Source: Agarophyton chilense (lineage: Eukaryota; Rhodophyta; Florideophyceae; Gracilariales; Gracilariaceae). From it: DNA of 64,000 nucleotides. Where the stretch lies: the NCBI GenBank assembly GCA_030374765.1, contig JARGXX010000080.1:248001-312000 (forward strand), written 5' to 3'. The translations under genes and the position numbers were made by a program. Positions within the stretch are counted from its first letter, which is position 1; every line of letters begins with the position of its first letter. Shown in pieces: positions 1-58,718 of the stretch. The notes below the pieces were generated by a model that made no database searches, was not told the DNA's origin, and worked only from the letters and a program-made list of their open reading frames with translations.

Positions 1-541
1 CGTGTTGCTCATTGAGGAGCTCAGTGCACGAGATTCGCTTGAGTTGAACTGAAGGGTCAGTGTCTGCTAATGCAAGGAACGGGTCTGCATCCGAATAATC
101 ATCAAGGGTCTCTTGTGCCTCTTCTTCAAAAGATGGTGAATGGGTCTCCATGTAGAAGCAAGGTATCTCTTCATTGATTTCGCCTTGTGTTTCGCCCATT
201 GTTTTGAGTCGCGATAGCGCGTCAGCTTGGAAATTGGCCAATCTCTTCTTATACTTCACTTCTAAATCGAATTCAGAAAGGCGTAAGCGCCATCGTGTGA
301 GAAGACCAGACGGGTCTGTAATGGACAGTAACCATCGTAGAGACGAATGATCCGTGTTGACGGTAAAACGTTCTCCTTGGAGATACGGTCGCAATGTGGT
401 TAGAGCCCAAACGACTGCAAGGCATTCCTTTTCTGAAACTGAATACTTCTTCTTAGCTGCGTTCAGCGATCTTGACCAGTAACCAATGGGTTTGCGTTCA
501 CCATCAGGGTGTCTTTGAAAACTGGCACACCCCACTTGGTA
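1..541 (-). pseudogene. Element A pol: RNase H and linker to integrase (partial)
   Basis: This minus-strand stretch continues the reverse transcriptase frame after a TAG at about 541-549. It matches the RNase H part of element B at 37310-37870, including the region that encodes YWSRSLNAAEKKYS and the ADALSRL motif that closes Ty3/gypsy RNase H domains. RNase H degrades the RNA strand during reverse transcription. The in-frame stop separates it from the RT frame, so the polyprotein is broken here. The window edge cuts it before the integrase. Confidence 0.85.
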
Positions 542-1813
542 CTAGCTAGAGTCGGTATCCACTGAGTATGGCAGGTTGGGGATGGGCAGCACCAAGACTG
601 GGGCTGTAATAATCCTTGTCTTCAGCGTGTCCAACGCTTCCACTTCAGCTTGTCTGAATTGTTCCAGCTGTACTGGTTGTCCTTTACGCAGCTTTGCGTT
701 GAGCGGTGCCGCTATATGCGAGTATCGCGGCACGAATCGTCGGTGGACGTTCCACAAGCCGAGGAAAGAACGCAATTGCTTCTGTGTCGACGGAGGTTGT
801 ACTTCGCGGAGAGCCGCTGTTTGTGCCTCTTGAATGGCAAGCTGTCCCGGCTTGATCACATGTCCTAAGTACCGGACGATGCCAGCGAACCATTCGCATT
901 TATTGAACTTCAAGGTGATACCTGCGCTCTGTCGTGCTTTGAGGATCTCGTCGACATGCCGTAAGTGGCTTTCCACATCCTGGGAAAAGATGATCACATC
1001 GTCCAAATAGACTAAAAAAGTCTTCCACTTGTATTTTGAGAGCAAGATGTCCATAGTAAGCTGGAAAGTAGCCCGTGCATTCGTTAAGCCAAAGGGCATC
1101 CTTTTGAAACGGTAGAGACCGGCGTGACACGCAAATGCGGTTTTATTTTGGTCTTCTTCCGCTACAGGCACCTGCCAATAGCCAGAGTTGGCGTCCAACG
1201 TGGTGAACACGTTCGCTTCTCCTAAGCTGTCAATACATTCGTCCATTCGAGGCAACGGGTATGTATCCCGAACTGTAACTGCGTTCAGTTTTCGATAATC
1301 GATACAGAATCGTATAGAACCATCAGGTTTTGGAACGAGCACCACTGGTGAGGCCCAAGCAGATTGAGCTGCTTCGATTAATTCTTCTTCCAGCATTTTG
1401 CTGACATTCTCCTCCTCGATTTGGAGAGTTCGCGGTCCCGCTCTGTAGGGTGGTTGGGAGATGGGTCGTGACCCTGGGACTAAATCAATGTGGTGTTCCG
1501 TAGCGGAGATCTCTCCTAGTTTTTCACTCCACATGGATGTATACTTCTTCAGCATAGACCTGATCTTCGTTCTGTAGTGTTCCGACACATGTGCTAAGTC
1601 TAGCTCATCTACCAGGCTCTCTGGATCCTTTGCCGTTTGCAATTGATCTCCAGACAGAGTTTGCAGTTCTTCGTCTGAGTCACCGACATGGGTTAATCCC
1701 AATACTTCTGCAGTAGAAATATGAGTAGGGACCACCACTGTGGGATGAGGCAAAGCTGTTGGAACAACCTGATTCTTCGGTATATGATAGTCGTTATCGG
1801 TGAAGTTACTCAC
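542..1813 (-). pseudogene. Element A pol: reverse transcriptase
   Basis: A 423-codon open frame on the minus strand encodes a Ty3/gypsy reverse transcriptase, which copies the element RNA into DNA. Visible blocks in order are SPVVLVPKPDGSIRFCIDYR (fingers), TTLDANSGYWQ (first catalytic Asp), FKRMPFGLTNA, the catalytic YLDD box at about residue 270, and YLGHVI followed by LRSFLGLWN towards the connection domain. The catalytic residues look intact. The first ~100 residues are the linker after the protease. A stop at the 3' end cuts it from RNase H, so I call it a fragment of a broken pol gene rather than a gene of its own. Confidence 0.92.
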
Positions 1814-1942
1814 TAGTATTCAAAAGGGGCTACCAGGATCAACCTGAGCAATGCCGTTAGCGATTAGCAGTCCCCGGGATTCTTAAATCCGAGTATTCGG
1901 TTGAATTACCACGAGTCCGTGTCGTTCTGTTCTTACTGGAAC

Positions 1943-2647
1943 TCAAGTTTGGGTTTGCGGCTTCAGCATGGCACTATTCGCTACTCGAATCCACGGCGAG
2001 ACAAGTCCTCGGGATTTCCCGTATTCCATAGATGGTGGAAGTGAATGTGCTTCAGAGCAACGACGCATTGGCTTGCGAACAATTGGTACCATTGATCCAT
2101 GATCTAGTTCCACTAGTTTTCTTCGCAGGCGAATGGCTTCGACAAACTTGTCACAACAATCACATCCCAGTACCACTGGTGCAGCTAACGTCTTACAGAC
2201 GATGAAGTCGACTAGGACTACAAAGCGTCCCAAACGCACCACGAGTCGAACTGTTCCCAGTGTCTTCACAACATTTTTGTTGGCATCCCGGATGTCCGGT
2301 AAAGGACAGTATCGAATACGTTCTAAGTCAGCAGGAGCGAGCTCCGATTTTCGTATAAAGTTCGGACCAGCACCTGTGTCCAGGATAGTCAATCGAAGAG
2401 ATAACAGATTCCTGTCAGAGCCGATGTCGGCATACACCTTATAGTTTCTTTTAGACATTACCATGAGGTCACTTTCCCGTTTTGACGGACAAGTATAACG
2501 TCTCCAAGGACGATATAACTCACAGTCAAACTGTACTTGCTTTCCGTCCGGCAGATTGATTCCGTACGGCGGAAATTTGGGAGGCCTCAAGAGGATCTTG
2601 GGCTTCCAAGCGCGGGAGCAGGGAGGCGATATCTCCCTGGTCAGCAC
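1943..2647 (-). pseudogene. Element A pol: aspartic protease
   Basis: The 234-codon frame carries the retropepsin signature LDTGAGPNFI (about residue 91 onward), preceded by a beta-strand-like segment and followed by GRFVVLVDFIV and PVVLGCD, as expected for a Ty3/gypsy aspartic protease that cleaves the Gag-Pol precursor. Element B lacks about 250 bp of exactly this region (2066-2318 in A), so A keeps the fuller version. The frame is separated from RT (starting at 1813) by short disrupted sequence. Confidence in the domain is high; whether it is functional is unknown. Confidence 0.85.
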
Positions 2648-2688
2648 TACGGGATCGACTAGTGCCGACCCCCTAGGGGCTCCCTCAC

Positions 2689-4624
2689 TTAGTTTTCCGG
2701 TTGCACCGGCTTATTCGCCTCAAAGGCGCCTCTTCCTACCGGGGTTCCGGGTTGTAACACTTCAGCATTCTGAGCAACCGGCTTGTCCGTCCGGCGCATT
2801 GGTGTCTGAGAAAACCAACTTTTGGCTTTCCAATTCATGCCCGCCGGTACGCGGCTCCTTTTCTCTTTTGAGAGTGCTTCATAATTCGTCATGTTACGAC
2901 TCAGATCCTTTGCAAAAAGCGTGCATTCTGCACTCAAATGGTGTTTTCCATAACATGAATAACATATCAAACCGTCACGACGGTTGGTCAACATAGACTG
3001 TGAACGGTATGCCATGCGAGTATCCACCCATCCGGGTTTCCCGTTCTTAAAACCTCCTTGTGGAGGCACCGTGTATGGACGGTACATAGGATAACGGCCC
3101 TCCATTTCCATTAGGGCTTCCTCGTCTTGAGACTCTGAGTGTGGGAGATCCACTGTAGGTACAGAAGAGTCCGTATATTCCATTAAATGGACCGCCTCCT
3201 CATGCTAGTCACTCCCTTTGGGTGCCAACGACGAATCAAGTGAGTGCACTGGAGATTACAAGGTAATCTTGTCCTCCGTCGAGTGGACGTTTCCACAGCG
3301 GTCTGAAGCTTTGTTAAGCTTTGAGCTGTACTCAGCTTCGCCCTCCTCAGGCTTTTCGGTCACATCCCTTAGGTCCCGGATCGCCTGAAGTATCGTGTTT
3401 GAAGTCGCGTAACTGAGCAGCAAATACTACGCCACCTCTGGCCATGAGGTGACGCCGCCTTCATCGGCTGTCAATTATCCGCCTACGGAACGATATAGCT
3501 CTAAAGCAAAACCCTTCAGGAAGTGTGGTAAAGACACAAATGTCTGTGGTTCACTCATCTCTAGAGTGTCTGCTTCGGCAACGAATCGAGTGAGAAACTC
3601 GATAACGAAGATGGGGGTTTTCCCATCAAATGTTAAATCATTAAGGCCGATCTTCACTCGTTTGATGTGATCCTTCACCTTCGCGGTTTCGCGTCCTGAG
3701 CACTTCTTTCTCTTCACCTTCAGACGGTAGTACCTGTAATTCAGAACCTTCCGGTAAAGCGGATTCGTGCACGGGAGCACCTTCAATCCTCTGTAAGGTG
3801 AGCCTTTTTTTATCATTTACCACGACGACGTGTTCTTCTTCCGAGATCGGGACTTTCGATGACCATCATCACTGTCGTCGTCATCTGACGTATCTGAATC
3901 ATCAGAATCATCAGTACTGGAACTGAAACCCTCCGTACTTGACGATTCATCACTCGAATCAAGTGCGGACTTCCACTTCTAACGTCGTGACTTCGACTTC
4001 TTCGAACGAGCTTCCTTCAAAGGAGCTCCTTCCTCTTCCAGCACGACTGGTTTAGCAGCAGTCTGCGCATGAACTGCTGCCTCCAGGCGTTCTAAACGAC
4101 GGTTAACTCGAGTGAGGACTTCCTCTACATCCACGGTTAAGCCGGGTAGCGCATCGGGCGTATTCCCGTACCTCTCCAGTAGATGGTTCAAATCCTCACG
4201 TAGTGTTTTTACTGATGCAGAGACCTGCTTCCCATCGTCTTGACGAACGAGTGCTTGATGCGCACTGCGTAATTGTTTGAAATCAGCGATAAGAGCAGCG
4301 ATCTGCGATTTCAACGCAACCATGCGCACACGCGAAGCGCTTGACTTAGACTTGAGACGACGCACTTCCCTGCGCAAATCATCCTCTTCTTGGGGTCCGA
4401 CGACCTCAGGGTCAACTACGGCTTCTGTGGTGGGACGTGACTGCCGCTGCCACAGGGGCTGGTACATCCGAGAGATCTCATTCATCATTCACCGAGCGTG
4501 AGCGCGACATCGCTTGACGATACAGCTGCTCTCCGGCTTCAACAGATGAGGCGAGCCTCGGTTTCGGGGGTGGTGCTGCAGGACCGGGGCGACCATTACT
4601 CGACTGGGTTCGGGTCTTCGGCAT
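2689..4624 (-). pseudogene. Element A gag, frameshifted
   Basis: Gag starts at an ATG at 4624 (MPKTRTQSS), 196 bp inside the primer binding site. It shows a proline-rich N-terminus, then a heptad-rich coiled-coil segment (4488-3979, many Leu and charged residues), a Ser/Asp tract (SSSTDDSDDSDTSDDDD), a basic-aromatic capsid-like part (3816-3475), and a CX2CX4HX4C zinc knuckle (CYSCYGKHHLSAEC) near 2930. Gag packages the element RNA. Reading requires frame changes near 4485 and 3830-3980 and it is poorly open between 3200 and 3450, so the gene is broken. Compared with element B it retains a ~520-bp coiled-coil segment that B has lost. Confidence 0.82.
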
Positions 4625-4819
4625 CCTAAACCAAACCTGAGTCCAGGTGCGAACCAAATGGTGTCTTCGACTTCTCGACCACGTGTTCAATCACGATGAA
4701 TTCCGCAATTGCCGGAGGTGGTTCGATAAACAATAACTGTAGTGATTCCACTTCTTCCAAGTATCGATATCGATTCCACGTTCCAGGAACGAATTGTTCA
4801 TTGCAGCTGACCACAGTGG

Positions 4820-4837
4820 TTCTAAGTCGGGAGACCA
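4820..4837 (-). other. Element A primer binding site (putative)
   Basis: Read on the minus strand the 18 bases TGGTCTCCCGACTTAGAA begin with the TGG expected to pair with a tRNA CCA end and lie two bases inside the 5' LTR. The same 18-mer is present in element B, and D has it exactly too. I could not identify the primer tRNA. Confidence 0.75.
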
Positions 4838-4839
4838 CT

Positions 4840-5506
4840 TGTAGTATCCGCTCTAACGGAGAGAGCAAACACCTGCTACAGCGTTCGGACTGCCGATGGG
4901 TCGCTTGCGGCGAAGGAAAAGGGGTGGTAGAGCTACAACACCAGCGAGCTGGAAGTGGGGTGTAAGGCCACTACTAGCCAGCGAGGGTGAACAGTGCAAC
5001 TGTAAAACGTTGATGGAACGTAGGTACGAGACGGCTCGTGAAGTGGATGGGGGCTGACTATCTAGTATAGCTCGTCCGGATCTCCGGTTAAGGAATCCTA
5101 AGCGAAGAACAGAATAGTCATGATGCCCATGTTGTCTCCTTTACTTGGAGTCGGCGCTCCCCTCTGGTACACTATATACTGCGTACCAGGGTGAGTACCC
5201 AAATAAATATATAAATAATACCCAGTGGTCAGCCACTTAGCCAAACCACTGTATGGGTATGATCCATAATGGACGTCTAGCTACAGAGGGTAATAAAACC
5301 AGCCACGTGGATCGCCACTACATGCGCCGTTGCAAGCCACTCCACTCGTGATACCACGTGTCCCACTAAGACAGTCTGCCTCCTGGCATCCTACGCGGTG
5401 TGCCGTCTCATAGCACAATACTGATGATATCACTCACTTATGAGTTCCAACCGCGACTTCGCGAAAAACCAACCTATCGGATTCCCCGACATAGTAGAAT
5501 ACTACA
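4840..5506 (-). repeat. Element A 5' LTR
   Basis: On the minus strand it starts TGTAGTATTC and ends GGATACTACA, a near-perfect inverted terminal pair. It is collinear with both LTRs of element B (about 715 bp each); at 667 bp A is somewhat shorter. It holds a conserved TATATAG core (near 5171-5180) and would supply promoter and polyadenylation signals. The outer boundary at 5506/5507 is defined by the return of element C sequence. Confidence 0.9.
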
Positions 5507-5934
5507 CATCGGACGAAACCCGCGGGCAGTGCGTCATACCCTTCTGCCTTCCCGTTGATACTACTGCATCGATGGACATTGCCACAGTCCTGAGGGAAGC
5601 TTGCTCGTGGGTGCGTCGCTCGGTGCGCTACGCCGCGGTGGTACAGCAAGGTCAAGATATGAAAACCGCTATGGTCAATATCCTGCGGCCGAATACCAAA
5701 TTGATGTCCCAGAGGATTACTGCCGACTTGGATGCCCGGTATGGTCTATATTTGAGCGACCGAGAGGCTTCCAATGGTGACAATTGTTTCTCAGGTGAAT
5801 CTCCGCCGAAGAAGCGTGCTTGGCTCTCTGGGCCCGGTTCTGGTGGTCCAGTTGGCTACTCGGGTGACCCTAGTCTCCGTTTCGATCCTGTAGGTTCCAA
5901 TGAGGACGACGTAGTTACTCCTGTGCCGCCCTAG
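5507..5934 (+). pseudogene. Antisense accessory ORF of element C, 5' end removed by element A insertion
   Basis: About 140 codons, completely open up to a TAG at 5932-5934, lie opposite to the pol orientation and tail-to-tail with the chromodomain gene (130 bp between the two stops). The matching stretch in element D (51468-51893) aligns without a frameshift but has three stops. The protein has a predicted helical middle part (around MDIATVLREACSWVRRS and MKTAMVNIL) and a proline/glycine/acidic C-terminus (PPKKRAW, NEDDVVTPVPP). I do not recognise the family. Sequence upstream of 5507 in the same frame is antisense LTR of element A and is accidental. Confidence 0.6.
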
Positions 5935-32864: not shown

Positions 32865-33580
32865 TGTAGTATTCTACTATGTCGGGGAATCCGATAGGTT
32901 GGTTTTTCGCGAAGTCGCGGTTGGAACTCATAAGTAAGTGTTATCATCAGCATTGTGGTATGAAGCGGCATCCCGCATAGGATGCCTAGAGGAAGAATGT
33001 CTTAGTGGAACACGTGGCCTCATGGGTCGAGTGGCTTACCACGGCGCGCGCATAGTTGCGATCCTTCCTAGGGGAATGCCATATTGGCAACGGCGCATGT
33101 AGTGGCGATCCACGTGGAGGGCTTTACTACCCTTTGTAGCTAGAAGTCCATTAGGGTCCATACCCATACAGTGGTTTGGCTAAGGGGCTGACCACTGGGT
33201 ATTATTTATATATTTATTTGGGCACTCACCCTGGTACACAGTATATAGTGTATCAGAGGCGAGCCCCGACTCCAAGTAAAGGAGACAACATGGGCATCAT
33301 GACTATTCTGTTCCTCGCTTAGGATTCCTTTACCGGAGATCCGGACGAGCTATAATAGATAGTCAGCCCCACACCACTTCATAAGCCGTCTCGTACCTAC
33401 GTTCCATCAACGTTTTACAGTTGAACTGTTCACCCTCGCTGGCGAGTAGTGGCCTTACACCCCACTTCCAGCTCGCTGGTGTTGTAGCTGTACCACCCCT
33501 TTTCCTTTGCCTCAAGCGACCCATCGGCAGTCCGAACGCTGTCGCAGGTGTCTGCTCTCTCCGTTAGAGCGGATACTACA
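32865..33580 (+). repeat. Element B 5' LTR
   Basis: 716 bp starting TGTAGTATTC and ending GGATACTACA. Matches 42180-42894 and element A 4840-5506. The 3' end is fixed by the primer binding site two bases later. Confidence 0.95.
33242..33248 (+). promoter_or_regulatory. Candidate TATA box in family 1 LTR
   Basis: TATATAG at this position is conserved in the 3' LTR (42556-42562) and in element A (around 5172-5178) within otherwise variable sequence, consistent with the U3 core promoter. The start site is not shown. Confidence 0.45.
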
Positions 33581-33582
33581 AG

Positions 33583-33600
33583 TGGTCTCCCGACTTAGAA
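33583..33600 (+). other. Element B primer binding site (putative)
   Basis: TGGTCTCCCGACTTAGAA, two bases after the LTR. Identical to A and D; the primer tRNA is not identified. Confidence 0.75.
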
Positions 33601-33796: not shown

Positions 33797-35426
33797 TGCC
33801 GAAGACCCGAAGCCAGTCGAGTACTGGTCGCCCCGGTCCTGCGGGACCACCCTGGAAACCGAGGCTCGCCTCATCTGTTGAGGAAGCTCGTTCGAAGAAG
33901 TCGAAGTCACGACGTAAGAAGCGGAAGTCCGCACGTGATTCGAGTGATTAATCGTCAAGTACGGAGGGTTTCAGTTCCAGTACTGATGATTCTGATGATT
34001 CAGATACGTCAGATGACGACGACAGTGATGATGGTCATCGAAAGTCCCGATCTCGAAATAAGAACACGTCTTCGTGGTTAATGAGAAAAAAAGGCTCACC
34101 TTACAGAGAATTGAAGGTGCTCCCGTGCACGAATCCGCTTTATCGGAAGGTTCTGAATTACAGGTACTACCGTCTGAAGGTGAAGAGAAAGAAGTGCTCA
34201 GGACGTGAAATTGCGAAGGTGAAGGATCACATCAAACGATTGAAGATCGGCCTTAATGATTTAACATTTGATGGGAAAACCCCCATTCTCGTTATCGAGT
34301 TTCTCCCTCGATTCGTTGCTGAAGCAGACACTCTAGAGATGAGTGAAACACAGGCATTTGTGTCTTTACCACACTTCCTGAAAGGTTTTGCTTAAGAGCA
34401 ATATCGTTCCGTATGCGGATCATTGACAGCCGATGAAGGCGGCGTGACCTCATGGCCAGAGGTGGGGGAGTATTTGCTGCTCAGTTACGCGACTTCAAAC
34501 ACGATACGTCAGGCGATCCTGGACCTAAGGGATGTGACCCGAAAGCCTGAGGAGGGCGAAGCTGAGTACAGCTCAAGGCTTACCAAAGCTTCAGTCCGCT
34601 GTGGAAACGTCCACTCGACGGAGGACAAGATTACATTGTACATCGACGGGCTGGACCCGAGCATCAAGTCGTTGGTAGCTCGATATCGAGAGAAGCATGG
34701 AAGAGTCTCCTTTTTGGAGTTAGTTCAGTTTTCGAAAGCTGAAGGAGATGCGGCCAGAGCGCGTGGTAGCCCGCGTCGTTCAGTGGCTTTTGGAACCTCA
34801 ATGGGTAAAGATAAGATCTCCGCCAGAGTTAATCAGCGTAGAAAACTGCTACATCTGGAATCTCCAGTGCACTCACGATATTCGTCGTTGGCACCCAAAG
34901 GGAGTGACCCGCATGAGGAGGCGGTCCATTTAATGGAATATACGGACTCTTCTGTACCTACAGTGGATCTCCCACATTCGGAGTCTCAGGAAGAGGAAGC
35001 CCTAATGGCTATGAAGGGCCGTCATCCTATGTACCGTCCCTACATGGTGCCTCCACAAGGAGGTTTTAAGAACGGGAAACCTGGATGGGTGGATACTCGC
35101 ACGGCATACCGTTCACAACCTATGTTGACCAACCGTCGTGACGCTTTGTTATGATATCATGTTATGGAAAACACCATTTGAGTGCAGAATGCACGCTTCC
35201 TGCAAAGGATCTGAGTCGTATCATGACGAATTATGAAGAACTCTCAGAAGAGGAAAGGAGCCGCGTACCGGCAGGCATGTATTGGAAAGCCAAAAGTTGG
35301 TGTTCTCAGACACCAATGCGCCGGACGGACAAGCAGGGTGCTCAGAATGCTGAAGTGTTACCACCCGGAACCCCGGTAGGAAGAGGCGCCTTTGAGGCGA
35401 ATAAGCCGGTGCAACCGGAAAACTAA
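33797..35426 (+). pseudogene. Element B gag, internally deleted and with stops
   Basis: Starts at ATG 33797 (MPKTRSQSS). Shares with A the Pro-rich N-terminus, Ser/Asp tract, basic capsid-like part (PYRELKVLPCTNPLYRK) and the knuckle SCYGKHHLSAEC near 35157. It lacks ~520 bp encoding the coiled coil: sequence jumps from SSVE to EARSKK. Stops interrupt at about 33949, 34393 and 35152. The middle region (34423-35154) contains the stretch LLLSYATSNTIRQAI and CGNVHSTEDKITLYIDGL typical of Gag capsid C-terminal parts. Confidence 0.85.
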
Positions 35427-36049: not shown

Positions 36050-37968
36050 TGAGTAACTTCACCGATAACGATTATCAGATACCGAAGAATCAGGGTGTTG
36101 CAACAGCTTTGCCTTATCCCACAGTGGTGGTCCCTACTCATATTTCTACTGCAGTAGTATTGGGATTAACCCATGTCGGTGACACAGACGAAGAACTGCA
36201 AACTCCGTCTGGAGATCAATTGCAAACGGCAAAAGGATCCAGAGAGCCTGGTCGATGAGCTAGACTTAGCACATGAGTCGGAACACTACAGAACGAAGAT
36301 CAGGTCTATTCTGAAGAAGTACACATCCATGTAAAGTGGAAAACTAGGAGAGATCTCCGCTACGGAACACCACATTGATTTGGTCCCAGGGTCACGACCC
36401 ATCTCCCAACCACCCTATACAGCGGGACAGCGAACTCTCCAAATCGAGGAGGAGAATGTCAGCAAAATGCTGGAAGAAGGAGTAATCGAAGCAGCTCAAT
36501 CTGCTTGGGCCTCACCAGTGGTGCTGGTTCCAAAACCTGATGGTTCTTTACGATTCTGTATCGATTATCAAAAACTGAACGCAGTTACAGTTCGGGATAC
36601 ATAACCGTTGCCTCGAATGGACGAATGTATTGACAGCTTAGGAGAAGCGAACGTGTTCACCACGCTGGACGCCAACTCTGGCTATTGGCAGGTGCCTGTA
36701 GCGGAAGAAAAACAAGACAAAACCGCATTTGCGTGTCACGCCGGTCTCTACCGTTTCAAAAGGATGCCCTTTGGCTTAACGAATGCACCGGCTACTTTCC
36801 AGCGTACTCTGGACACCTTTCTCTCAAGATACAAGTTGAAGACTTGTTTAGTCTATTTGGACGATGTGATCATCTTTTCCCAGGATGTGGAAAGCCATTT
36901 ACGGCATGTCGAGGAGATTCTCAAAGCACCACAGAGCGCAGGTATCACCTTGAAGTTCAAGAAATTCGAATGGTTCGCTGGCACCGTCCGGTACTTAGGA
37001 CATGTGATCAAGCCAGGACAGCTTGCCTTTCAAGAGAAACAAACAGCGGCTCTCCGCGAAGTACAACCTCCGTCGACACAGAAACAATTGCGTTCTTTCC
37101 TCGGCTTGTGCAACATCTACCGACGATTCGTGCCGCGACACTCGCATATAGCGGCACCGCTCAACGCAAAGCTGCGTAAAGAACAACCAATACAGCTGGA
37201 ACAATTCAGACAAGCTGAAGTGGAAGCGTTCGGCACGCTGAAGACAAAGATTATTACAGCCCCAGTCTTGGCGCTGCCCATCCCCAACCTGCCATACTCA
37301 GTGGATACCGACTCTAGCGAGTACCAAGTGGGGTGTGCCAGTTTTCAAAGACACCCTGATGGTGAACGCAAACCCATTGGTTACTGGTCAAGATCGCTGA
37401 ACGCAGCTGAGAAGAAGTATTCAGTTTCAGAAAATGAATGCCTTGCAGTAGTTTGGGCTCTAACCACATTGCGACCGTATCTCCAAGGAGAACGTTTTAC
37501 CGTCAACACGTATCATTCGTCTCTACGATGATTACTGTCCATTACAGACCCGTCTGGTCGTCTCACACGATGGCGATTACGCCTTTCTGAATTCGACTTC
37601 GAAGTGAATTATAAGAAAGGATTGGCCAATGTCCAAGCTGACGCGCTATCGCGACTCAAAACACTGGGCGAAACCCAAGGCGAAATCGATGAAGAGATAC
37701 CTTGCTTCTACATGGAGACACATTCACCATCTTTTGAAGAAGAGGAACAAGAGACCCTCAATGATTATTCGGATGCAGACCCGTTCCTTGCATCAGCAGA
37801 CACTGAACCTTCAGTTCAACTCGAGCGAATCTCGTGCAATGAGCTCCTCAATGAGCGACACGTCGATACGTTTTGTGCGTCGATACGCTCTCGTCTTAAC
37901 GGGGGCGAAGGAGCTTCCCTTTTCACTCGATTCACGAGGAATACTGTGAAGACATGTCGAAAAACATG
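36050..37968 (+). pseudogene. Element B reverse transcriptase and RNase H
   Basis: RT motifs: SPVVLVPKPDGSLRFCIDYQ, TTLDANSGYWQ, FKRMPFGLTNAPATFQ, catalytic YLDD at about 36854-36865, YLGHVI, LRSFLGLCNIYRRFV. RNase H follows (YSVDTDSSEY, YWSRSLNAAEKKYS, NECLAVVWAL) and ends at QADALSRL near 37640, with an acidic linker to integrase. TAA at 36602-36604 replaces the Tyr of DTYPLPR, and TGA at about 37529 cuts RNase H. A single ~307-codon frame (36608-37531) keeps all RT catalytic residues. Confidence 0.93.
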
Positions 37969-37976
37969 ATCAAATC

Positions 37977-39272
37977 GTGATTCCACACGTCTTCAAGAGT
38001 CGAGTACTGCATCTTGCACACTACAGCAGGCTGTCTTGTCATCCAGGAGGAACAAAGTTGTTCATGACTCTAAGAAGAGATTTTTACTGGCCTACTTTAG
38101 CAATGGACTGCCATGCTACAGTGAGGTTGTGTACAACATGTGCGAACAATCGCGTGAAGCTTTACAGGAAGCGGAAACCGATGACGTTATTCAAGGCGAA
38201 AGCGCCCTTACAATACGTCAGTATCGACATCCTAGGGGAATTGATTCGCTCAAAGCGAGGTTATCGCTACCTATTGGTAATCACCGACCGCTTCTCGAAG
38301 CTAGTGCGGATTGTGCCGCTGAAGCGGATAACCATAACCGTAATCGCACAGGCGTTTATCAAACACTGGGTATTTATATACGGACCACCAGAAGTTCTGT
38401 TATCAGATAATGGGAAGCAATTCGTTGCGAAGTTCTTTCAGAATGTTTGCCGCATTATGGGCATTCGAAACGTGTTCACCACGACCTATCATCCGCAATG
38501 CAACGGTCAGGTGGAGCGTTTCAACCGCATGCTGATAGCAGCATTACGACACTACATCGCGGACCCCCCGAAAGAATGGGACGTGTTTACAGATACTCTG
38601 TGCTACGCGTACAATACGCAAGTGCATACCTCCACAAAGACGGCACCGTTCGACCTCGTGCTCTCACGCAACCCCCCGGCTTTACCGGTTGCGCTCGACG
38701 ACGAGACAGAATTGGACGCGCCGACCCCGGCTAAGTACCATCTGAAATGGAGGAATGACCTGAAGGCCAGAGCCGAAGAAGCCGCTAAGGAGTTATCAAA
38801 GACGCAAGCTCGCTATAAGCGAAACTATTACGACAGAAGGCGAAAAGGAAATCCGGCAATCCGAGTAGGAGGTCACGTCTTCGTGCGAGTCGAAAGACCT
38901 GACAAACAGAAAGAATCGCGTCATAAGTTGTTGCCAATAGCGGCTGGACTCTTCAAAGTGGTGGACCTTGATGAAGACACAGTGGTCATCAAGACAGGTG
39001 AGGACGTTGAACGTGTATCGCACGATCGCGTTGAAGTCGCGCCTGACCCGCAAGTGAAAGTCCAGGTATCTGATAGAACTAAGGAGGCAAGGGCGATGGA
39101 AAGTCAAGGCAAAAGCCCAAGTGACTCTGGGGAGAGTGAACCGCCACCAATGGCTCGAATGGAGGAGGAAGCTCCTGATCTCCCACCGCCGGCGGTTGCG
39201 TACGCCAATCACGGACAGCTTCCGAAATATCGGGATATGCCCCGTGGCACGCACACACCCGTAAATACATAA
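37977..39272 (+). pseudogene. Element B integrase
   Basis: 431 open codons. HHCC zinc-binding domain: HLAHYSRLSCHPG and CTTCANN. Catalytic core: SIDILGELIRSKRGYRYLLV (first Asp), LLSDNGKQFVAKFF (second Asp), TTTYHPQCNGQVERFNR (Glu). Then AYNTQVHTSTKTAPFDLVLS, and a C-terminal barrel with HKLLPIAAGLFKVV. All three catalytic acids look present. A single TAA at 39270-39272 separates it, in frame, from the chromodomain segment. Confidence 0.93.
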
Positions 39273-39995
39273 ATGGGACCTGAAAGAAGGAAAGATGTTT
39301 CGGAATTTGGCCCCAAGGACTTGGAAACGAGTGCACGCGAAAACGCGCCTTTGCCGCTTCAGGCTGAACCGTCAGGTGAAGCGCCACTCGCTGTTCCGCC
39401 GATATCGGCTCCCATCCCTCGTGGGAAGGAAGAAGAAGAGGTATCGCCTCCTGTCGTGGTGCAAGCACCATCATCCACTGAACAGCGGTCAGAATCGGAT
39501 AAACCGAAGGAAGTTCACCCACGAATGGAATTGAGAAGTAGCAAGAAGTACGCTTCTATGGAACCTGGAAAACAGGATAGCTCTTTATCTGAGAAAGGTT
39601 TTCAAGGAATGAGTACACTGCCCCTGCCGGCAGAACGACAGTTAGTCGACGAGCTAACGCTTAGCGACGCTGAGACTGCTAACAAAGAGACGCTTGGGTC
39701 AGCCCTAAGGAATTTCAAACCTGATAACCGGAGTCTCGCGCCAACAGCAAAAGCATTGGGAAACGCCCAGGAATATGTTATGGATCGCATATGTGAATAT
39801 GGCGAGCATGAAGATACTGGAGAATTACTGTATCGAGTCCGTTGGTACGGTTTTCCTCCGGAAACGGATACGTGGGAACCTATACCTCATATCCCCCGTT
39901 CGCAACTCGTGCGATATCATCGACGCATGCGATTACCACTCCCCAGGGGGATCGACTTTTCGATAGTCGGGCTCATGGGCACATCCCATTTCTAA
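39273..39995 (+). pseudogene. Element B pol C-terminus with chromodomain
   Basis: 240 codons in frame with the integrase. A ~170-residue acidic, Pro/Ser-rich linker is followed by a chromodomain: EYVMDRICEY, LLYRVRWYGF, PETDTWEP, SQLVRYHRR. The aromatic cage positions (Y, W, W/F) are recognisable. Pol ends with the TAA at 39993-39995, 330 bp before the stop of the convergent antisense ORF. Confidence 0.92.
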
Positions 39996-40109
39996 GTATG
40001 GGCTACGAAGGTAGTAAAAACTCGAAAGGCGAGAAGAAAACAAGAAATCATGAACAGGAAACGTGAAGACACGCAAGCAAAGGACATTTACTGATTATCA
40101 CCTAGTACA

Positions 40110-40215
40110 AACTCGAGAAGCGAGAGGAAGGATTGAAGAACTCGAGAAGCGAAAAGAAGGATTGAAGAACTCGAGAAGCGAGAAGAAGAAGTTGAGAACT
40201 CGAGAAGCGAGAAGA
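40110..40215. repeat. 29-bp tandem repeat downstream of element B pol
   Basis: Three to four imperfect copies of ACTCGAGAAGCGAGAAG plus a GGATTGAAGA spacer; the last copies are shortened. A related half unit lies at about 40019. It sits between the stops of pol and the antisense ORF, so it could act in 3' processing for either transcript; that is speculation. Confidence 0.8.
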
Positions 40216-40325
40216 GATGAAGACTAGAAGATAGGAAGGGAACGTGAAGACACGAAGTCACCGGAGTTTTATTGATATCAAGATACCACCGCAAGGGTGT
40301 TGACTAAGAGTCTTTTCTAGGATCA

Positions 40326-42155
40326 TCAAAGAGACGTGGGATCACGCAGGTTTGCAAGAAGCTGTGCGCGATCACCCTCAACTTGGTCCACGGGAAAGCC
40401 TGCATCTAAGAGGAACTGCCTCAGCGGATCCAAGCTTGGATCTTCGACTGGCACTTCACTTGGTTGTTTGGTAAACCCATGAAAGTATTCTTGAGCAACT
40501 CCCGCCGCTGCGGATTGATCGACGAAAGTCGCTACGCCTGCCAGCTCTGGCTCGTCCTCGTAACCGAGTTCAGCCTCAGCTCCCGGCGCTTCCTCATACG
40601 GTTCCTCTCCGTTCTTGGATGGAGTAGCATCGTACACATATCCAGTAAGCTGGTTCGGTGGCATGTCACGCGGGTTCTCCCGAAGAAAGCAAGCCTGCTC
40701 GGAGGTGATCAACTGGCGCGTCCAGGGGTCGTACCAAACGAAATCTCCAGCACCTGCTGTTCGTCCAGGAGAATGGTCGTGGTGTCTTGCACGGGTTCCG
40801 CGAGCGGATTGATAAGCTGGCACTCCAGATCAATCGACACTGTCGATCAAATCCACAAGATGGAGGAAGTCGGCATGGTTCGCACGGGATCCCAGGACAA
40901 GGGAAAGATCGAGTTCTTTCGCATACTTTCGCGCTGTGGGCGACATGTACCAAACTCTAAAGGTATCATAAGCATCCCACAGGAGGAAGACGGCCATCTT
41001 GGCGATAAACTCGGTATAAACCACCGTCCAATATCCCGAGAACGGGTCGTTAACCAACGCGGACCCGATGTAGGAGATCGCCGGTGGGAGCTCCACAGGG
41101 CAACCACGAGAACTCTCGATCGCCGCCCAATGCTCCGGAATACCGATGTAGCGCCCGAAGCGCGCGTTCCGCCGGATGCGGTCAATCCCGATCATTTGAT
41201 ACGGCACCAAATAGACCAAACGTGATCGAGTACGACGTTCCCAACGGGGATAATCCCAATAGGGAATGTCACGCTTTCGAAGGAAGCGGAACTCCGCACG
41301 GAGAAGAGGTTGCTGAAAGCAGAGAGCTGCATCACGCACACCGCGCACACCGCGGCAACCGCTAACATCGACTTCAACGAGTGTCTCGATATACGAGTAA
41401 CCTTCACCGTCGGTACGGGCTTTCCAGGTATCTAGTTCCCAGTCCTGCGGGAGGAGAACCGTACTGATGAATCGGTGAAGACGCTGGTAAATCAGCTTGG
41501 TGAACCGCGTACAGGCTTCAGACAAGGTTTCCGTTGAATATCGCGCAATCGCGTTTTCTGGCAAAGAAATATGGCTTACCCAGTCGTCGCCATAAACCTA
41601 GTGTTCCGTAATACCGTCAGGGAAGTACCCAACGTGTACATACTGTTGTATCAACGCGTCATCGCGGATAGTAACTGGATCAAACCAGGGCGCTTGCGCG
41701 AAGAAAAGTTCAATGTTGTCGAGAGGATCTCGTCAATAGAAATCCGCAGGGTGCGAGTAGCTCCGCTGAGCACGGCGAGAAGGAGCTCGAATCACACCCG
41801 CAGAGGCGACTTAAGCCGCGTTCGGCATCGGGGCCACGGTTGGCTGAGGTAACGGTACCGACCGGAATCCGGTGTACGGTGTGGGGACCGAACGCTATGG
41901 ACCGAGTAGGGCAGTAGGCTGCGACGCATAACCAACAGTGTTGGACGGAGCCCCAGAAGGCACATCCTCAGAGGAGGGCTGGAACGGGTTGGATCCGGCG
42001 TTCGGATCCATCGCGAGAGATCGAGCTGAAGAGCGGTGAGGAACAGAATGCTGTTGAGAACTGTAAGAGTTGGTCGGGCGTCGAGGAATTCGTGATGAAG
42101 ATGAGTACCCGAAACACCGTTCCGACTGCGTATAAACGCTTCTTGCGTCCCCCAT
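40326..42155 (-). pseudogene. Antisense accessory ORF of element B (609 codons with five in-frame stops)
   Basis: On the strand opposite gag-pol an ATG at 42155 (MGDARSVYTQ), only 24 bp inside the 3' LTR, opens one frame that continues to a TGA at 40326-40328. It is interrupted only by stops at 41895, 41811, 41733, 41598 and 40830 (TAG, TAA, TGA, TAG, TGA) and by no frameshift. The N-terminal ~100 residues are Ser/Pro/Gln-rich; the middle is rich in Arg, Trp and Tyr (DIPYWDYPRWERRTRSR, RFGRYIGIPEHW) with a 244-codon uninterrupted block; the C-terminus is acidic (EEPYEEAPGAEAELGYEDE). No family is recognised. The open length and frame conservation argue that it was a real protein. Confidence 0.7.
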
Positions 42156-42170
42156 GGTTCGCGCTTAACT

Positions 42171-42179
42171 AGAGGGGTG
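42171..42179 (+). other. Element B polypurine tract (putative)
   Basis: AGAGGGGTG abuts the 3' LTR, the expected plus-strand primer position. It is short and ends with a T/G pair, so the exact tract is approximate. Confidence 0.55.
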
Positions 42180-42894
42180 TGTAGTATTCTACTATGTCGG
42201 GGAATTTGATGGGTTGGTTTTTCGTGAAGTCGCGGTTGGAACGCATAAGTGAGTGTTATCATTAGCATTGTGATATGAAGCGGTATCCCGCATAGGATGC
42301 CTAGAGGCAGAATGTCTTAGTGGAACACGTGGCCTCATGGGTCGAGTGGCTTACTACGGCGCGCGCATAGTTGCGACCCTTCCTAGGGGAATGCCATATT
42401 GGCAACGGCGCATGTAGTGGCGATCCTCGTGGAGGGCTGTACTACCCTTTGTAGCTAGAAGTCCATTAGGGACCATACCCATGCAGTGGTTTGGCTAAGT
42501 GGCTGACCACTGGGTATTATTTACGTATTATTTGGGCACTCACCCTGGCACACAGTATATAGTGTACCAGAGGTGAGCGCCGACTCCAAGTAAAGGGGAC
42601 AACAAGGGCATCATGACTATTCTGTTCCTCGCTTAGGATTCCTTTACCGGAGATCCGGACGAGCTATAATAGATAATCAGCCCCACACCACTTCATAAGC
42701 CGTCTCGTACCTACGTTCCATCAACGTTTTACAGTTGAACTGTTCACCCTCGCTGGCGAGTAGTGGCCTTACACCCCACTTCCAGCTCGCTGGTGCTGTA
42801 GCTGTATCACCCCTTTTCCTTTGCCTCAAGCGACCCATCGGCAGTCCGAACGCTGTCGCAGGTGTCTGTTCTCTCCGTTAGAGCGGATACTCCA
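42180..42894 (+). repeat. Element B 3' LTR
   Basis: 715 bp, TGTAGTATTC to GGATACTCCA. About 25 differences from the 5' LTR, mostly transitions, plus a small length change in the AT-rich stretch near 42525. Confidence 0.95.
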
Positions 42895-43400
42895 AAGAAA
42901 ATACCATTCACCGCCGTTGACCTCGTTGAAGTGTATGTCAAACTGGAAGTGGAGAAACGAGGACGACGTTCGCTCCCCAAGACTGTGACATCAGTCAACG
43001 CCTACAACCGCATTGCCACTGTGCCTGGAAAAGCTGGCAAGGAATTGACAGCCGCGTTTGAGGATACACACATGGAAATTCCCTGTCACGAGCTTTGCAA
43101 AGCTTGTGCAAGACGGTATTGATGCCCTGGATGACATGAATGATATTGAAATGCCACAAGAGTCCAATGACAACTCCAAATCAACTCCTTAAACTGCGGC
43201 TGCCGACTCTGATTTTGGCACAGATGCAGTAAAAGACGATGTCACAGCCAGAATAGGTGACAAAGGGAAAATCTTTCGGCCGTTAGACGACCAGTACTTT
43301 TACGGCACTGTGCATTCTGCCGCGGACGACCGGCTCGTCAGTTTGCACTATGAGGATGGGACGGTGATGCTCCTTGCGAGACTGGATGCGTGGAATGCTT
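42895..43400 (+). pseudogene. Older copia-like element: right part of the gene split by element B
   Basis: The frame resumes with KKIPFTAVDLVEVYVKLEV, an integrase C-terminal strand pattern, then AAFEDTHMEI. A further frame holds RPLDDQYFYGTVHSAADDRLVSLHYEDGT near 43275-43365, the small barrel-like module located between integrase and RT in this lineage. The RT that should follow is absent, so the element is truncated here. Confidence 0.75.
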
Positions 43401-50337: not shown

Positions 50338-50783
50338 TGTAACGCAATGACTGGTGGGTCAGCGTACTGGTCTGAACCTGAGGTAGCGTGATGCAGCGAA
50401 TCCTAAGGTTCGTATCCTTGGCTGCGGCACTTCCAGATTACTTGATGAAATGGGCTGGCGTGTACTGCGTAGTTCTACAGGTCGAAGCTACGGAAACGAT
50501 GGCTTGACGACCAATTGGTGGAACTGATGTACCACAGGGGGTAGTTTAGTATCCTAACTGTTCCTACCTTACTCTAAAAAAGAAGCGTCACTCGAGCCAA
50601 GTAAATAGCGATGGCGAGGCGCTAAGATCTCCCTGGCACTGCAATGCTAATCTATTACACTAATTAAACTAAAATTATTATATAAATGAGTGCAGCTGAG
50701 GTCGGCCAGTCCACGTGGCGTCTGTAAGATACCTTAAGCCCTGACTGCGCACAGGACTCAACCGTTATCGGTGCTCCTTCACA
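50338..50783 (-). repeat. Element D 3' LTR
   Basis: 446 bp from TGTAACGCAATG to CTCCTTCACA on the plus strand; matches 58740-59185 and 12823-13267 with many substitutions. Confidence 0.9.
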
Positions 50784-50884
50784 TACCTCCCTCCCTATGA
50801 TTTGACTGTCACGGCGAAGTCCAAATTGCCTCACACATTCCTGGGGGTCTAGCTCTAATTGGATTTATTGGTGAACCTCCAATC

Positions 50885-51893
50885 ATGCCTTCGGGGTCGG
50901 AACGTCGTGATCCTCAGCGTCATAATGGTTTTGACACGAGCGGGGCCGTGCCTGACATGTCGGCGTCTTATGATCAATCCGGGGTTTAGTTGCTCCCGTT
51001 ACCAGTGAGCGCGATGGAACGTCGCATCGCCACCATTCTAGGGAGTCCTGTTGCGAAAGGGCTGACCCTTGGCGCCATGTTGGAAATTAATTTGCGTGAA
51101 GTACTGTAAGCTCACCGGTGTAGGGTGTTCCTTGACGCTTTTCATATCCGTTGTTATTCCTTTGGCGACCCTACACGCTTCGTCCGCCGTGAACCACGGT
51201 GCGCGCCATCCTGCCCGATTCGGTTTCTTTCTCCCTCCTTCCTGTCGCAGTATTCCTCCAGTGGTCGTGCGCGATGCCACAATCGCCTCTGAAGCCTGTC
51301 GGATACGCCACTCTCCCTCCTGACTTTGTCGCTTCAGTCGGTTTTCCAATCCATTTCCCGGCAGACCAGCCTGTGGGCAGCGGCGCCTTCGAACAACCAA
51401 GCGGGGAGCTCCTCGCGATATCAAGTGGCTTAGGAGCGCTCCGGGGACCGCTATGACCGTACCATGGGACGAAATCCGCGGGCAGTGCGTCATGCCATTC
51501 TGACGTACCGTGCGTATTACTGCCTAAATGGACATTGCGACAGTCCTTGGGGAAGCTTGTTCCTGAGCGCGTCGATCGGCGCGCTACGCCGCGACTCTCC
51601 AACAGGGTCAAAATCTGAAGACCGCTATGGTCAGTCTCCTGCAGCAGAATGCAAAAATGATGTCCCAGAGGGCTACTGCCGACTTAGATGCCCGGTATGA
51701 TCTAGATTTGAGCGATCGGGAGGCTTACGAGGGTGACAGTAGTTCCTTAGGTATATCTCCAGCGAAGAAGTGTGATCGGCTTGCAGGTGCCGGTCCTGTT
51801 GGTACAGTAAGCTTCTTGGTTGACCTTAGTCCTGATATCGCGCCTACAGATTTCAATGAGGACGATGGGATTACTCCTGCGCCGACCCAATGA
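50885..51893 (+). pseudogene. Antisense accessory ORF of element D, decayed
   Basis: The frame begins about 100 bp inside the 3' LTR at ATG 50885 (MPSGSERRDP) and runs opposite to pol, ending at TGA 51891-51893 about 110 bp from the end of the chromodomain frame. Stops and at least one frame change are present (for example near 50987 and 51110, and stops at 51321 and 51499). From 51468 on it aligns without gaps to the open frame in C (5509-5934): MDIATVLGEACS, MSQRATADLDARYDLDLSDRE. A helical piece near 51014 (MERRIATILGSPVAKGLT) belongs to the N-terminal part. Family unknown. Confidence 0.55.
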
Positions 51894-52005
51894 GTCATGT
51901 TGGTGTTCGGAGCGCCTTCGCGAACCTTGAGGTCTTGAAGGGGGCTGTTACGTCTCTGCTAGTTACTCAAATATAGTAATTCTTGCGCTTTCCAAATGTC
52001 TTTTT

Positions 52006-52800
52006 TTAACTCAAAGATGTGTGCACCGGGACGGCGTGCGATCCTTGAGAGCTTCTCAGGTCTTTCTCAGGTGTGGCCTGAGGATCGACTTTATTCCCTG
52101 AAGCAGGAACTACGGCGAACCGTCGTGTCGGGAGGCGTTTTGGGACGCTTTTTGGTATTGTCCAGGCCAACGATTGCCCCCTCCAGAAGGCTGCGCTCCG
52201 TGCAGCCGATTTTGCGCCAATATTGGGCGAAAAAATTAGGCGGAATGGTTTGAGGCTCTTGCAAAGTGTCTTTTTCAGGAATGTAGTCGAACCAACGGAC
52301 GTGATAGGCCATAGTTCCATCTTCTCCCCGATCGGCGAAGATGATGTGCTCAATCACTTATTTAGGTTAGTGTTCATTCTCTTCCGGAAAAAGAGTGTGG
52401 TCCAGAGAGGCAAATCCGTCGGAGTCGGTTGGAACAGATGGGTCATCGTCAATGGCATTGAGCACCGGGTCCATGGGGCTACTCAGGTCCGCCGAAACTG
52501 CCTGAGGGGGTGAGGAGTCTTTAGCGTCAACCTGAGGTCGTAGTGATTTCGATGGGCAAAGGGGCTGGGACTTTGGTTATTCGGGAGAGTTCGGGGCTCG
52601 TGTCACCTGATTAAGAGATACCGTGTCCTGTAGGCTGTCAATTAATAACATATTGGTGTGTTGATAGACCTTAAAGACTTTTTATGGTCCTGCAGAACGA
52701 AGTAAGAGCTTCTGCGTAGTGTCCTTGAGTTCATCACTGTTCTTCGGAGGCTGGTCCAGGTAAACCAATTCTATTTTCCCAAAGATATATTTATTCCAGA
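52006..52800 (-). pseudogene. Element D pol C-terminus with chromodomain
   Basis: Chromodomain blocks readable as IEHIIFADRGEDG, MAYHVRWFDY, EKDTLQEPQTIPPNF, YWRKI; the second Trp of the usual DTW is Leu. An integrase C-terminal barrel-like stretch lies upstream near 52650-52800. Frame changes separate the parts. Confidence 0.82.
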
Positions 52801-52879
52801 CGGATTTGTCGTTATTGTTCTTGTAGTGCCATTGGGCTTTGATCACTACAGCTCTATCTGATTGGGTAATGCGGTTGAT

Positions 52880-53720
52880 GCGTCGGCGCGAGTAGCACTT
52901 CGCCTAAAGAGGAGTCATTCCTTCGGTTATTTCCTAGGGTACAATAGACTCCTGAAGGTTAACAGCTATCGGCGGTGGCGATCTCCTTAGCGTTAGGTCG
53001 AAAGGCTTTGTCCCCGTGGAAGCGTACAATTACGTGTCGTAGGCATAAACTTGTTGTTCAACGTATTCGTACCAGTCCAATTGGTACGCTGATACGTAGT
53101 GAGTCAATCAGTCCAGAAGGATGCGGTTGAAGCGTTTGGCTCGGCCACTGGTTTGCGGGTGGTGTGCCGTGGTGGTCACATGTTTCATACCTAAGGTAGC
53201 ACAAACGTGGGAGGAAGTTTTGGATATAAGCTGACTGCCAGTATCCGTAAGGAGGTAGAGTGGAATGCCATATGGATATACCCAGTGAGGCAAGAAGGCC
53301 GTAGCGACATTCGTGGCTGTTGTCTTCCCTAGGGGTTGGGCTCGGGTAAGTCTGGTAAACATTCAGTTACTACCAAGACAAACCGTTCCCCATGGGACGC
53401 TTTAGGCAAAGATCCAATTATAACCATTGCGACATATTCCATCGTGCCTGCGGCGGGGAAGAGTTTCAATTTGGCCTGATGGTTGGCGCGAGACCCTCGA
53501 ATTTGTGCGCACGAAGTACAGTTCCGTGCGGGTTGAAGTAGGTCCTGCGCAATTAGTGGAAAGTAGAAGAACTTCCTTAGGGTCTGGTACAATCATCGGC
53601 CTCCAGGGAGACCAGCTAAGCGAGGGAAAAGGGCAAGGTATGGGAATCTTGCCTTTAGTGACATTGGTACTACCCGTTGGAGTGCGCGATCCAGTGGTTA
53701 GCGGAGACAAAGTAGTCATA
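52880..53720 (-). pseudogene. Element D integrase
   Basis: HHCC part near 53592-53500 (YQTLRKFFYFP, ARNCTSCAQIRG), core with LLTDTGSQLISKTSSHVC (DNG changed to DTG) and TTTAHHPQTSGRAKRFN, where the expected catalytic Glu of AERFN is Lys. Several breaks; inactive. Confidence 0.82.
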
Positions 53721-53879
53721 ATCGGTCATAGTCGAATAAACATCCAGGGGTTTCTACCTATTGGGCTGTTTCCTCACTGTACTCGTCTTTGACCTACTTC
53801 TGTAGGTGTTCCTCAATAGTTATAGGGTGGAGCTCTTTTCCTTACGGGGCGGGGCTATCGTGTTAAGCTGAGGTGGTGT

Positions 53880-55310
53880 CGAATTGGGCGGTACTGTCTC
53901 CTAGTCCAATAGGTAGACTTCATTTTCCTTTAACTCAGGATAATCCACTTTGACCTTTCACAGAAGGCATTCTGTTTCCGTATAACCCTCAGGTCCATCA
54001 TCTTTGAAGGGGGAAGGAATGAGGTCGTCCAATAGCGTGTCATCAGATCCGTCGGTAATGATTCGCGACAGGGCATTTGGTGCCTGGTGCTTGATACCTG
54101 GCCTATAGGTTGTACCATTGTCACACTCTGACAGCCTGAGGCGCCACCTAGCAAGGCGACTCGATGCATCGGTCTTATTGAGTATCCAGCGGAGAGCGAA
54201 GTGAATCATGGTCTGTCCAAATGGTAAACTTGGTTCCCTCGAGATACGGAAGGAGTGTCAATATGCACCATACGATGGCTAGACATTCCTTTTCGGTCGA
54301 ACTGTAGTTTCGCTCCGCGCTGGTGAGCGTTCTGCTCCAATATCCAATAGGTCCATAGTCCTTCGGTGACTACTGTTCCTGTAGCAGTGCACATCCCACT
54401 TGGACATCAGAGACATCTGTATCCAGGACAAAGGGCCTATTGGGTTCGGCTAAGACCAGTGTAGAATGGTTCAGTAATTTGTCCTTTACGGGTTTGAAAT
54501 GCCTCGTACTGTTCGTCGGTAAGGGCCTCAAATTCTGAAAGTGCTCCCTTTTTCACCATTGCGTTGAAAGGGGCCGAGGTTTTTGCAAACCCTTGGACGA
54601 AACGGCGGTAAAAATTGCCCAAGCCTACGAAGGATCGTAGTTCCGTATGGGTTCTGGGAGGTATAACCTAGCGGATCGCATTCGTGGTCCGTGAGACTAC
54701 CTTTGGCTTTCCTGGGAGGACGACGTGACCGAGGTAGTCCACCAAAGCCTGGAAGAAGCCGCATTTGCAGAGTTTCAGTGGTACTCCAGCGTCCTGTAGG
54801 ATTGTTAGCACTGCATTAACGTGACGAGGGTGATTCTCCACGGCACGTGAGAAGATGATTACATCATCTAAATAGACTAGGGCTAATTTACATTTAGCGC
54901 AGGACAGTATGATGTCTATTACCCGTCGGAAGGTTGCTGGCGCATTCTTTAAACGAAAGGGCATACGAGTTAATCTGAACAGACCTTCATGGGTTGTGAA
55001 AATTGTCAGCGCTCTCCTATCTTCGGCCAATTATATTTGTCAATATCCGGAGTTAGCGTCCAGTGTGATAAATACGACAGCTTTACCAAAAGAATCTAGA
55101 CAGCCATCCAAACGGGTTATCGGCTATGAGTCCCTCTTGGTTACTGCGTTCAGCTTCCTGTAGTCCACGCAGAACCTGATGGAGCCATCCTTCTTAGCCG
55201 CAAGGACAAGAAGACTTGCCTATTCGGATTGGTTACGAGGCGCCGGATCTATGACGTGGGCTTCGCGCATTTTTTTCATCTGGTTTGCGACAATTTCCCT
55301 ACCCTAAAGG
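53880..55310 (-). pseudogene. Element D reverse transcriptase and RNase H
   Basis: RT: FTTHEGLFRLTRMPF, LKNAPATFRRVID, LVYLDDVIIFS (catalytic pair intact, near 54875), YLGHVVLPGK. RNase H and tail: MGNFYRRFVQGFAK, APNALSRIITDG (ADALSR equivalent). Stops interrupt the frame repeatedly. Confidence 0.88.
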
Positions 55311-55384
55311 CCTGTACGGTATGGGTGCTGGAACTGGGTTAAAGAATTATCCTGAAGGGCAATGCAGTGTGTAATTGCTCTGAT

Positions 55385-58110: not shown

Positions 58111-58341
58111 ATTGTCTGACTGGCTGGTGACTGATCCTTGAACGGCCTGAAGGAGGGCGCCTATGAAACGCTTAGACTCCAATACCTTAGGGACGATTCA
58201 CGTAATGAGGTAATCCATATGGTCAGAGATCGCCATAGCCAGTCGCATATCCACAATGAAATCCAGATTTGGTGAGAAGGGCTCCCAGAGACAGGGCTAG
58301 AGAAGGTTGGCAAGCCCTGCGGGAGTGTTCTCTCTAAATCA

Positions 58342-58715: not shown

Positions 58716-58718
58716 GGA

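Follow-up and report, generated by a model that had tools for sequence, protein, structure and literature searches.

Open reading frames that lie between pol and the 3' LTR in antisense orientation (aORF-3R) are known from the elements Grande, RIRE2, Retand and Boty (reviewed in PMC7264820). In Retand, antisense genes termed TRP28 are described from nearly all clusters, often together with tandem repeats in the same region, and TRP28 is said to occur only in flowering plants (PMC11963269). For gene23 of the maize element Grande, an upstream promoter of its own and a nuclear product are reported, and in HTLV an antisense promoter is located inside the 3' LTR (both as summarized in PMC7264820). 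Chromodomain-bearing Ty3/gypsy elements are represented in oomycetes by Chronos; the words antisense and aORF are absent from the main text of the Chronos paper (PMC5348765), and antisense is likewise not among the words used in a survey of LTR elements of plants (PMC6317226). In the open-access literature, judged mostly from titles and the first lines of abstracts, no antisense gene of such kind was recognized in a red alga.

The window, i.e. the whole 64-kb stretch of red-algal DNA analyzed here, contains an LTR retrotransposon in which a long open reading frame, antisense to gag-pol, occupies the interval between pol (ending at position 39995) and the 3' LTR (starting at position 42180). 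The features of this element, and of a further copy at the window edge, are as follows.

32865..33580, plus strand: 5' LTR (TGTAG...CTACA), from the blastn self-match, with ends read from the letters
33583..33594, plus strand: candidate primer-binding site (TGG...) directly inside the 5' LTR, read from the letters
34423..35151, plus strand: gag block (Pfam Retrotrans_gag, E 4.5e-05, 24.0 bits at a cut-off of 24.1)
36605..37528, plus strand: reverse transcriptase and Ty3-type RNase H block (Pfam RVT_1, RT_RNaseH_2, RT_RNaseH)
37950..39269, plus strand: integrase block (Pfam rve and Integrase_H2C2 on 37980-39269)
39273..39992, plus strand: end of pol with chromodomain (Pfam Chromo PF00385, E 9.1e-07)
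40110..40215, no strand assigned: 29-bp tandem repeats, 3.7 copies, in the spacer between pol and the antisense gene (39996-40325)
40268..40273, minus strand: AATAAA, candidate poly(A) signal 52 nt past the stop codon of the antisense gene, from the sequence
40326..42155, minus strand: antisense gene (aORF), 609 codons plus TGA, with five in-phase stops, from frame reading and comparison of copies
42170..42179, plus strand: polypurine tract adjoining the 3' LTR, within the aORF leader, from the sequence and a leader alignment of 46 copies
42180..42895, plus strand: 3' LTR, presumed site of an antisense promoter, from the blastn self-match
1..5508, minus strand: second family member, truncated at the window edge, with its aORF (codons 1-354) immediately outside the window

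Pfam domains in the order reverse transcriptase, RNase H, integrase and C-terminal chromodomain identify the element as a chromodomain Ty3/gypsy retrotransposon of the chromovirus-like type; because of the chromodomain, it is not a member of Ogre/Tat. Comparison of the window with itself by blastn paired the LTRs 32865-33581 and 42180-42895 at 95.7% identity. A TAA followed by an ATG at 39270-39272 separates integrase from chromodomain in the window copy; this TAA is absent in 15 of the 17 copies having that junction. The pol gene and the aORF are arranged tail to tail across the repeat-bearing spacer of 330 bp, and in many copies the spacer alignments show gaps of some 30 bp, which suggests that the number of 29-bp repeats varies between copies. 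Two types of LTR were observed in the family. Nine other copies align with the window LTR over its whole length at 91-93% identity. In the remaining ones, identity to it is 77-91% within the first 183 bp and 90-94% from position 223 onward, the part between being poorly alignable; the variable part (42180-42400) is the side nearest the aORF start.

The window also harbors another Ty3/gypsy family, with two copies (5503-13268 and 50338-59187) that are about 82% identical to each other, reverse transcriptases 44-52% identical to that of the focal element, and a chromodomain match in the first copy. Neither copy contained an aORF match in the self-comparison of the window. The first copy shows plus-strand open reading frames of 164 codons (5440-5934) and 171 codons (6205-6720, over the chromodomain). 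The former, an antisense frame, was rejected as a gene, as its differences from the counterpart at 51468-51884 are evenly spread over the codon positions (27/32/31) and the counterpart contains three stops. A direct repeat of 1.33 kb (18645-19977 and 24655-25988) is 97.9% identical between its two units, which are 6 kb apart. A 511-codon, intronless-looking open reading frame at 16298-17830 with a TM7S3/TM198-like domain (E 8.2e-23) is probably a host gene. In the genome as a whole, PF00504 (light-harvesting proteins) gave 9 matches and PF00427 (phycobilisome linker) 13, seven of the latter on one contig taken for plastid DNA and the other six on six contigs including that of the window. A Phytophthora-type ITS1 start is absent, and the pairing of light-harvesting proteins with phycobilisome linkers points to a red alga, not to the oomycete considered at first.

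The first-pass annotation of this DNA had described a minus-strand frame of 609 codons running from 42155 to 40326 and interrupted by five in-phase stops (at 41895, 41811, 41733, 41598 and 40830), with no frameshift, and re-reading of the sequence confirmed each of these points. The uninterrupted block of 244 codons it had noted is the longest one, comprising 244 amino acids when read from a TTG and 255 codons from stop to stop. The start codon, placed by that annotation 24 bp inside the 3' LTR, had to be relocated: since the 3' LTR starts at 42180, the ATG at 42155 lies 24 bp outside it, on the internal side, and the polypurine tract is situated between the two. With 1830 bp, the window aORF is 3 bp longer than the aORF of most copies (1827 bp). 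The proposal that such a frame is hard to obtain by chance was borne out by dinucleotide shuffling of the window stretch, as none of 1000 shuffles had so few stops; the best of the six frames contained at least 8 (mean, 15.2), compared with the 5 observed. Three open copies extend over 608 codons each, the maximum in 300 shuffles of each being 358. The window copy itself is a broken, dead copy of the antisense gene.

Searching the 79.8-Mb genome with the stop-free block of 255 amino acids revealed matches of 86-100% identity at no fewer than 149 places (all of the 149 that were scored, among 1470 first-look candidates); at 18 of these, as counted from the search table, 606 or more codons in a row are open and the matched block is free of stops. 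A set of 50 loci, all selected by their aORF, was assembled from 30 loci of this search, including the window copy, and 20 more. Forty-four of them contain pol, aORF and LTR together and in that order; the pol side is missing from L023 and L050, the LTR side from L019, L021 and L034, and both from L040. A filter requiring 90% coverage in one compact match was passed by 45 of the 50 loci (L025 and L037 are among the five dropped, yet are full length), and among these 45 are six stop-free copies of 1827 bp. Of 65 loci considered, one of which is rDNA, 14 had an uninterrupted run of 590 or more codons; this share does not represent a random fraction because L058-L065 had been chosen for being open. 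Nine of the 14 long-open copies start at the shared ATG and run for 604-608 codons to a TGA, and the remaining five have their first methionine further downstream. At L040 (G000:C95:2583021-2589785, positions 816-2525, plus strand), an aORF fragment is embedded in a 570-codon open stretch that extends beyond both of its ends, and the 6.8-kb locus shows neither LTR nor spacer nor pol around the fragment, which may be a rearranged remnant or a co-opted piece.

Since the first loci had all been selected by their aORF, four copies found by other means, namely by pol or by the chromodomain, were checked, and all four carry the aORF, one of them in truncated form. This is the second copy of the window (L056, found by pol), which retains aORF codons 1-354 and the LTR. 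The three others (L066-L068, from the chromodomain search) had been picked because no neighboring aORF was listed there; the aORF turned out to be present in each, over nearly its whole length and with frameshifts. Full copies without the frame, which according to the first-pass annotation would have spoken against a gene, were thus not what was found. L068 (G000:C80:337500-340120), some 50 kb distant on the contig of the window, corresponds to window positions 39273-40325 with 100% protein identity in the chromodomain block and 99.7% DNA identity in the spacer, whereas the adjoining aORF is only 94% identical, which points to recent gene conversion or recombination between copies.

Stop density in the aORF is similar to that of pol. 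Counted over 20 loci, stops per 1000 codons amount to 2.74 in the aORF, 3.96 in the reverse transcriptase, 3.62 in the integrase and 4.88 in the chromodomain block. Like the aORF-3R of other elements, the frame occurs in most copies and is conserved to a degree like that of gag-pol. Internal stops are mostly private; those at codons 115, 224 and 376 are each common to three or four of the 45 filtered copies, suggesting either that some broken copies have multiplied or that the same sites mutated repeatedly. The ATG of the aORF is kept in 41 of 46 copies, in 37 of them as AACCATGG. The AATAAA located 52 nt past the stop codon occurs in 38 of 47 copies, a conservation no better than that of its surroundings. 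In three open copies, GC content by codon position follows the order 1 > 3 > 2, and the same ranking applies to gag and integrase.

Variation among the copies mostly reflects decay after insertion, as is to be expected of retrotransposons, and the missense/synonymous ratio of singletons was near 1 (0.96 and 1.09 in two analyses). The main selection test included 53 copies and 1000 randomizations matched for mutation spectrum and CpG. Variants found in at least two of the 53 copies comprised 199 synonymous (expected, 162) and 364 missense changes (expected, 387) in the aORF frame, corresponding to a ratio of 0.76 (p = 0.002); the other two antisense frames gave 1.06 and 1.40 for such variants. 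For variants in at least three copies, the aORF ratio was 0.83 (p = 0.10, not significant), and in one control frame the singletons also deviated (0.89, p = 0.02). Sense frame 1 yielded 0.79 (p = 0.006), which is read as a mirror of the aORF signal because this frame shares its third positions with the aORF and contains 33 stops in the majority state. Shared variants were distributed over the three codon positions as 151/123/194, compared with 369/352/352 for singletons (p = 0.0012). Within the family, there is a modest signal of purifying selection, with missense changes depleted in the aORF frame. Pairwise pN/pS among 14 open copies (0.75) was dropped, as values of 0.68-1.03 across the six frames show that it does not discriminate. 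The findings that the first-pass annotation had named as evidence against a gene mostly did not materialize, as the frame is present in other copies and matches no further part of the window.

A coding sequence can leave frames open on its opposite strand, and the aORF region indeed includes a 271-codon open frame on the sense strand (40410-41222), so the aORF might merely reflect base composition or the coding constraint that acts on the other strand. This explanation is hardly tenable, because the majority state has 10, 33 and 15 stops in the three sense frames, the ratios for variants in at least two copies are 1.12 and 1.36 in sense frames 0 and 2, and shuffled sequences never reach the observed openness.

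An older and decayed relative of the aORF (L051, G000:C103:253500-256700), with about 50% protein identity, is located beside a younger copy. Over 235 codons, its differences from the open copy L014 amount to 0.315/0.238/0.443 at codon positions 1/2/3, and the third-position bias persists at A/T sites alone (0.215/0.177/0.394). No such bias is seen in the matching stretch of the other chromodomain family of the window, with its 27/32/31 differences. When the genome was searched with a piece of L051, the best of the 150 places scored, apart from L051 itself, was 71% identical to it.

Open copies, coding-type substitutions, a conserved start context and the presence of the frame in all four independently found copies lend good support to the earlier proposal that the protein was once made, and the aORF is very probably a real, selected protein gene of the element. 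Its product of 608 residues begins with a basic stretch of 135 residues rich in Ser, Pro and Gln (pI 10-11 in three copies), followed by an aromatic-rich core and an acidic C-terminal part. Searches of Pfam with window pieces and six open proteins, of PHROGs with two window pieces, and of PDB sequences with one window block and a profile of the six open proteins gave no significant match, the best PDB sequence match being PARP15 (E 0.23). No significant relative was detected in viral contigs with one window block or in prokaryote contigs with the profile, the latter being a weak scan that rested on two short N-terminal peptide patterns. Two Pfam candidates were rejected, namely Ish1 in the C-terminal block (E 0.19, far below the cut-off, and absent from all six open proteins) and E3_binding (E 0.15 and 0.24, far below the cut-offs). 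Single-sequence AlphaFold2 models of two window blocks had mean pLDDT values of 36 and 47, too poor to use, and Foldseek with the second modeled block returned nothing below E 2.9; no fold is claimed. The statement of the first-pass annotation that the product resembles nothing known accordingly holds for Pfam, PHROGs and PDB, and the profile and structure-based searches it had proposed brought no significant family, sequence or fold match.

The same annotation had considered a captured gene. Transduction by LTR elements is described in PMC7264820, and the aORF matches no other part of the 64-kb window by blastn self-comparison, as might be expected of cargo that originated in a host gene or in another mobile element. 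No support for this emerged, as Pfam, PHROGs, PDB, and viral and prokaryote contigs yielded no significant homologue, although the searches were limited to the best 150 or so places in the own genome and included no eukaryote collection, so that a host homologue could be missed. Unlike recent cargo, moreover, the aORF is common to all copies examined and appears to be selected, and we regard capture as quite improbable. A structural or replicative product, such as a particle, nuclear-import or integration factor, deserves somewhat more credit but is still rather unlikely: the basic N-terminus could bind nucleic acid, and the pol-like stop density of the aORF would fit a protein required for transposition, but Pfam detected no capsid or nucleocapsid domain, and a transcript of its own in antisense orientation would be an odd source for a protein needed in stoichiometric amounts in the particle.

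Since no homologue or fold was found, a function can be assigned to the product by analogy only. We propose that the aORF is a standard and selected part of a high-copy chromodomain Ty3/gypsy retrotransposon, and that an antisense promoter within the 3' LTR would drive it, a location that could well be correct. The transcript may end near the AATAAA found 52 nt past the stop codon. The product would then act in trans on the expression or replication of the element itself, probably in the nucleus, in line with proposals made for antisense proteins of Grande and Retand; a regulatory role modeled on these proteins is possible, and the likeliest of the functions considered. Taken as a whole, the reading of the aORF as a selected antisense accessory gene of a high-copy chromodomain Ty3/gypsy element, acting in trans on that element and broken in the window copy, appears reasonably probable. 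Convergent genes over 1.8 kb would yield complementary RNAs if both were transcribed, and the antisense transcript itself could be what matters, by pairing with genomic RNA and feeding small-RNA silencing or copy-number control, the protein being secondary or absent. The review which raises such an RNA role also states that it may coexist with a role of the protein (PMC7264820). As the sole explanation it is unlikely: an element in which only the RNA mattered would not be expected to keep long frames open, to show fewer missense changes in one particular frame or to diverge most at third codon positions. The proposed accessory gene is open to direct tests of expression and selection, given at least 149 matching places in a genome of about 80 Mb, several of them open.

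Among the described systems, the aORF-3R of Grande, RIRE2 and Retand resemble the gene reported here in place, orientation, occurrence in most copies of a family, and products without clear relatives, and tandem repeats are often found in the region between pol and the 3' LTR of these plant elements, comparable to the 29-bp repeats of the focal element (PMC7264820, PMC11963269). Grande gene23 is likewise an antisense accessory gene before the 3' LTR, and Boty of the fungus Botrytis cinerea is a non-plant element cited as having an aORF-3R; both likenesses are by description (PMC7264820). Retand belongs to a non-chromovirus lineage, whereas the focal element has a chromodomain (PF00385 at 39273-39992), and its region between pol and LTR measures 2.9-6.6 kb, compared with 2.2 kb here (PMC11963269). 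Chronos shares the chromodomain Ty3/gypsy type and a protist host, but has an extra RNase H of the plant type, while the window leaves about 0.4 kb between the reverse transcriptase/RNase H and integrase blocks (PMC5348765); in a Pfam scan of the reverse transcriptase block, the RNase H seen was of the Ty3 type only. The hosts of Grande, RIRE2 and Retand are flowering plants, whereas the host here is a red alga, and TRP28 (Transposase_28, PF04195) gave no match in the six open proteins (E up to 10) or in four window pieces (E up to 5). HBZ is the antisense gene of HTLV, and this and other HTLV-type antisense genes are driven by the 3' LTR of a retroelement, the likeness to the aORF being one of functional analogy only.

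The architecture is thus a known one, aORF-3R being no homology group, and as far as tested the protein family and the host group are new. In Pfam, the aORF protein has no match to the antisense products of the elements described before. We tentatively suggest that a red-algal chromovirus has independently evolved or acquired an antisense, LTR-driven regulator of an undescribed protein family, a further independent origin of the HBZ/gene23 kind, kept under purifying selection through many transpositions. The design of an antisense accessory gene is carried by this comparison from flowering plants and one cited fungal element to a chromodomain element from a red alga, and if it arose repeatedly, the selective reason for it should be general to LTR retrotransposons.
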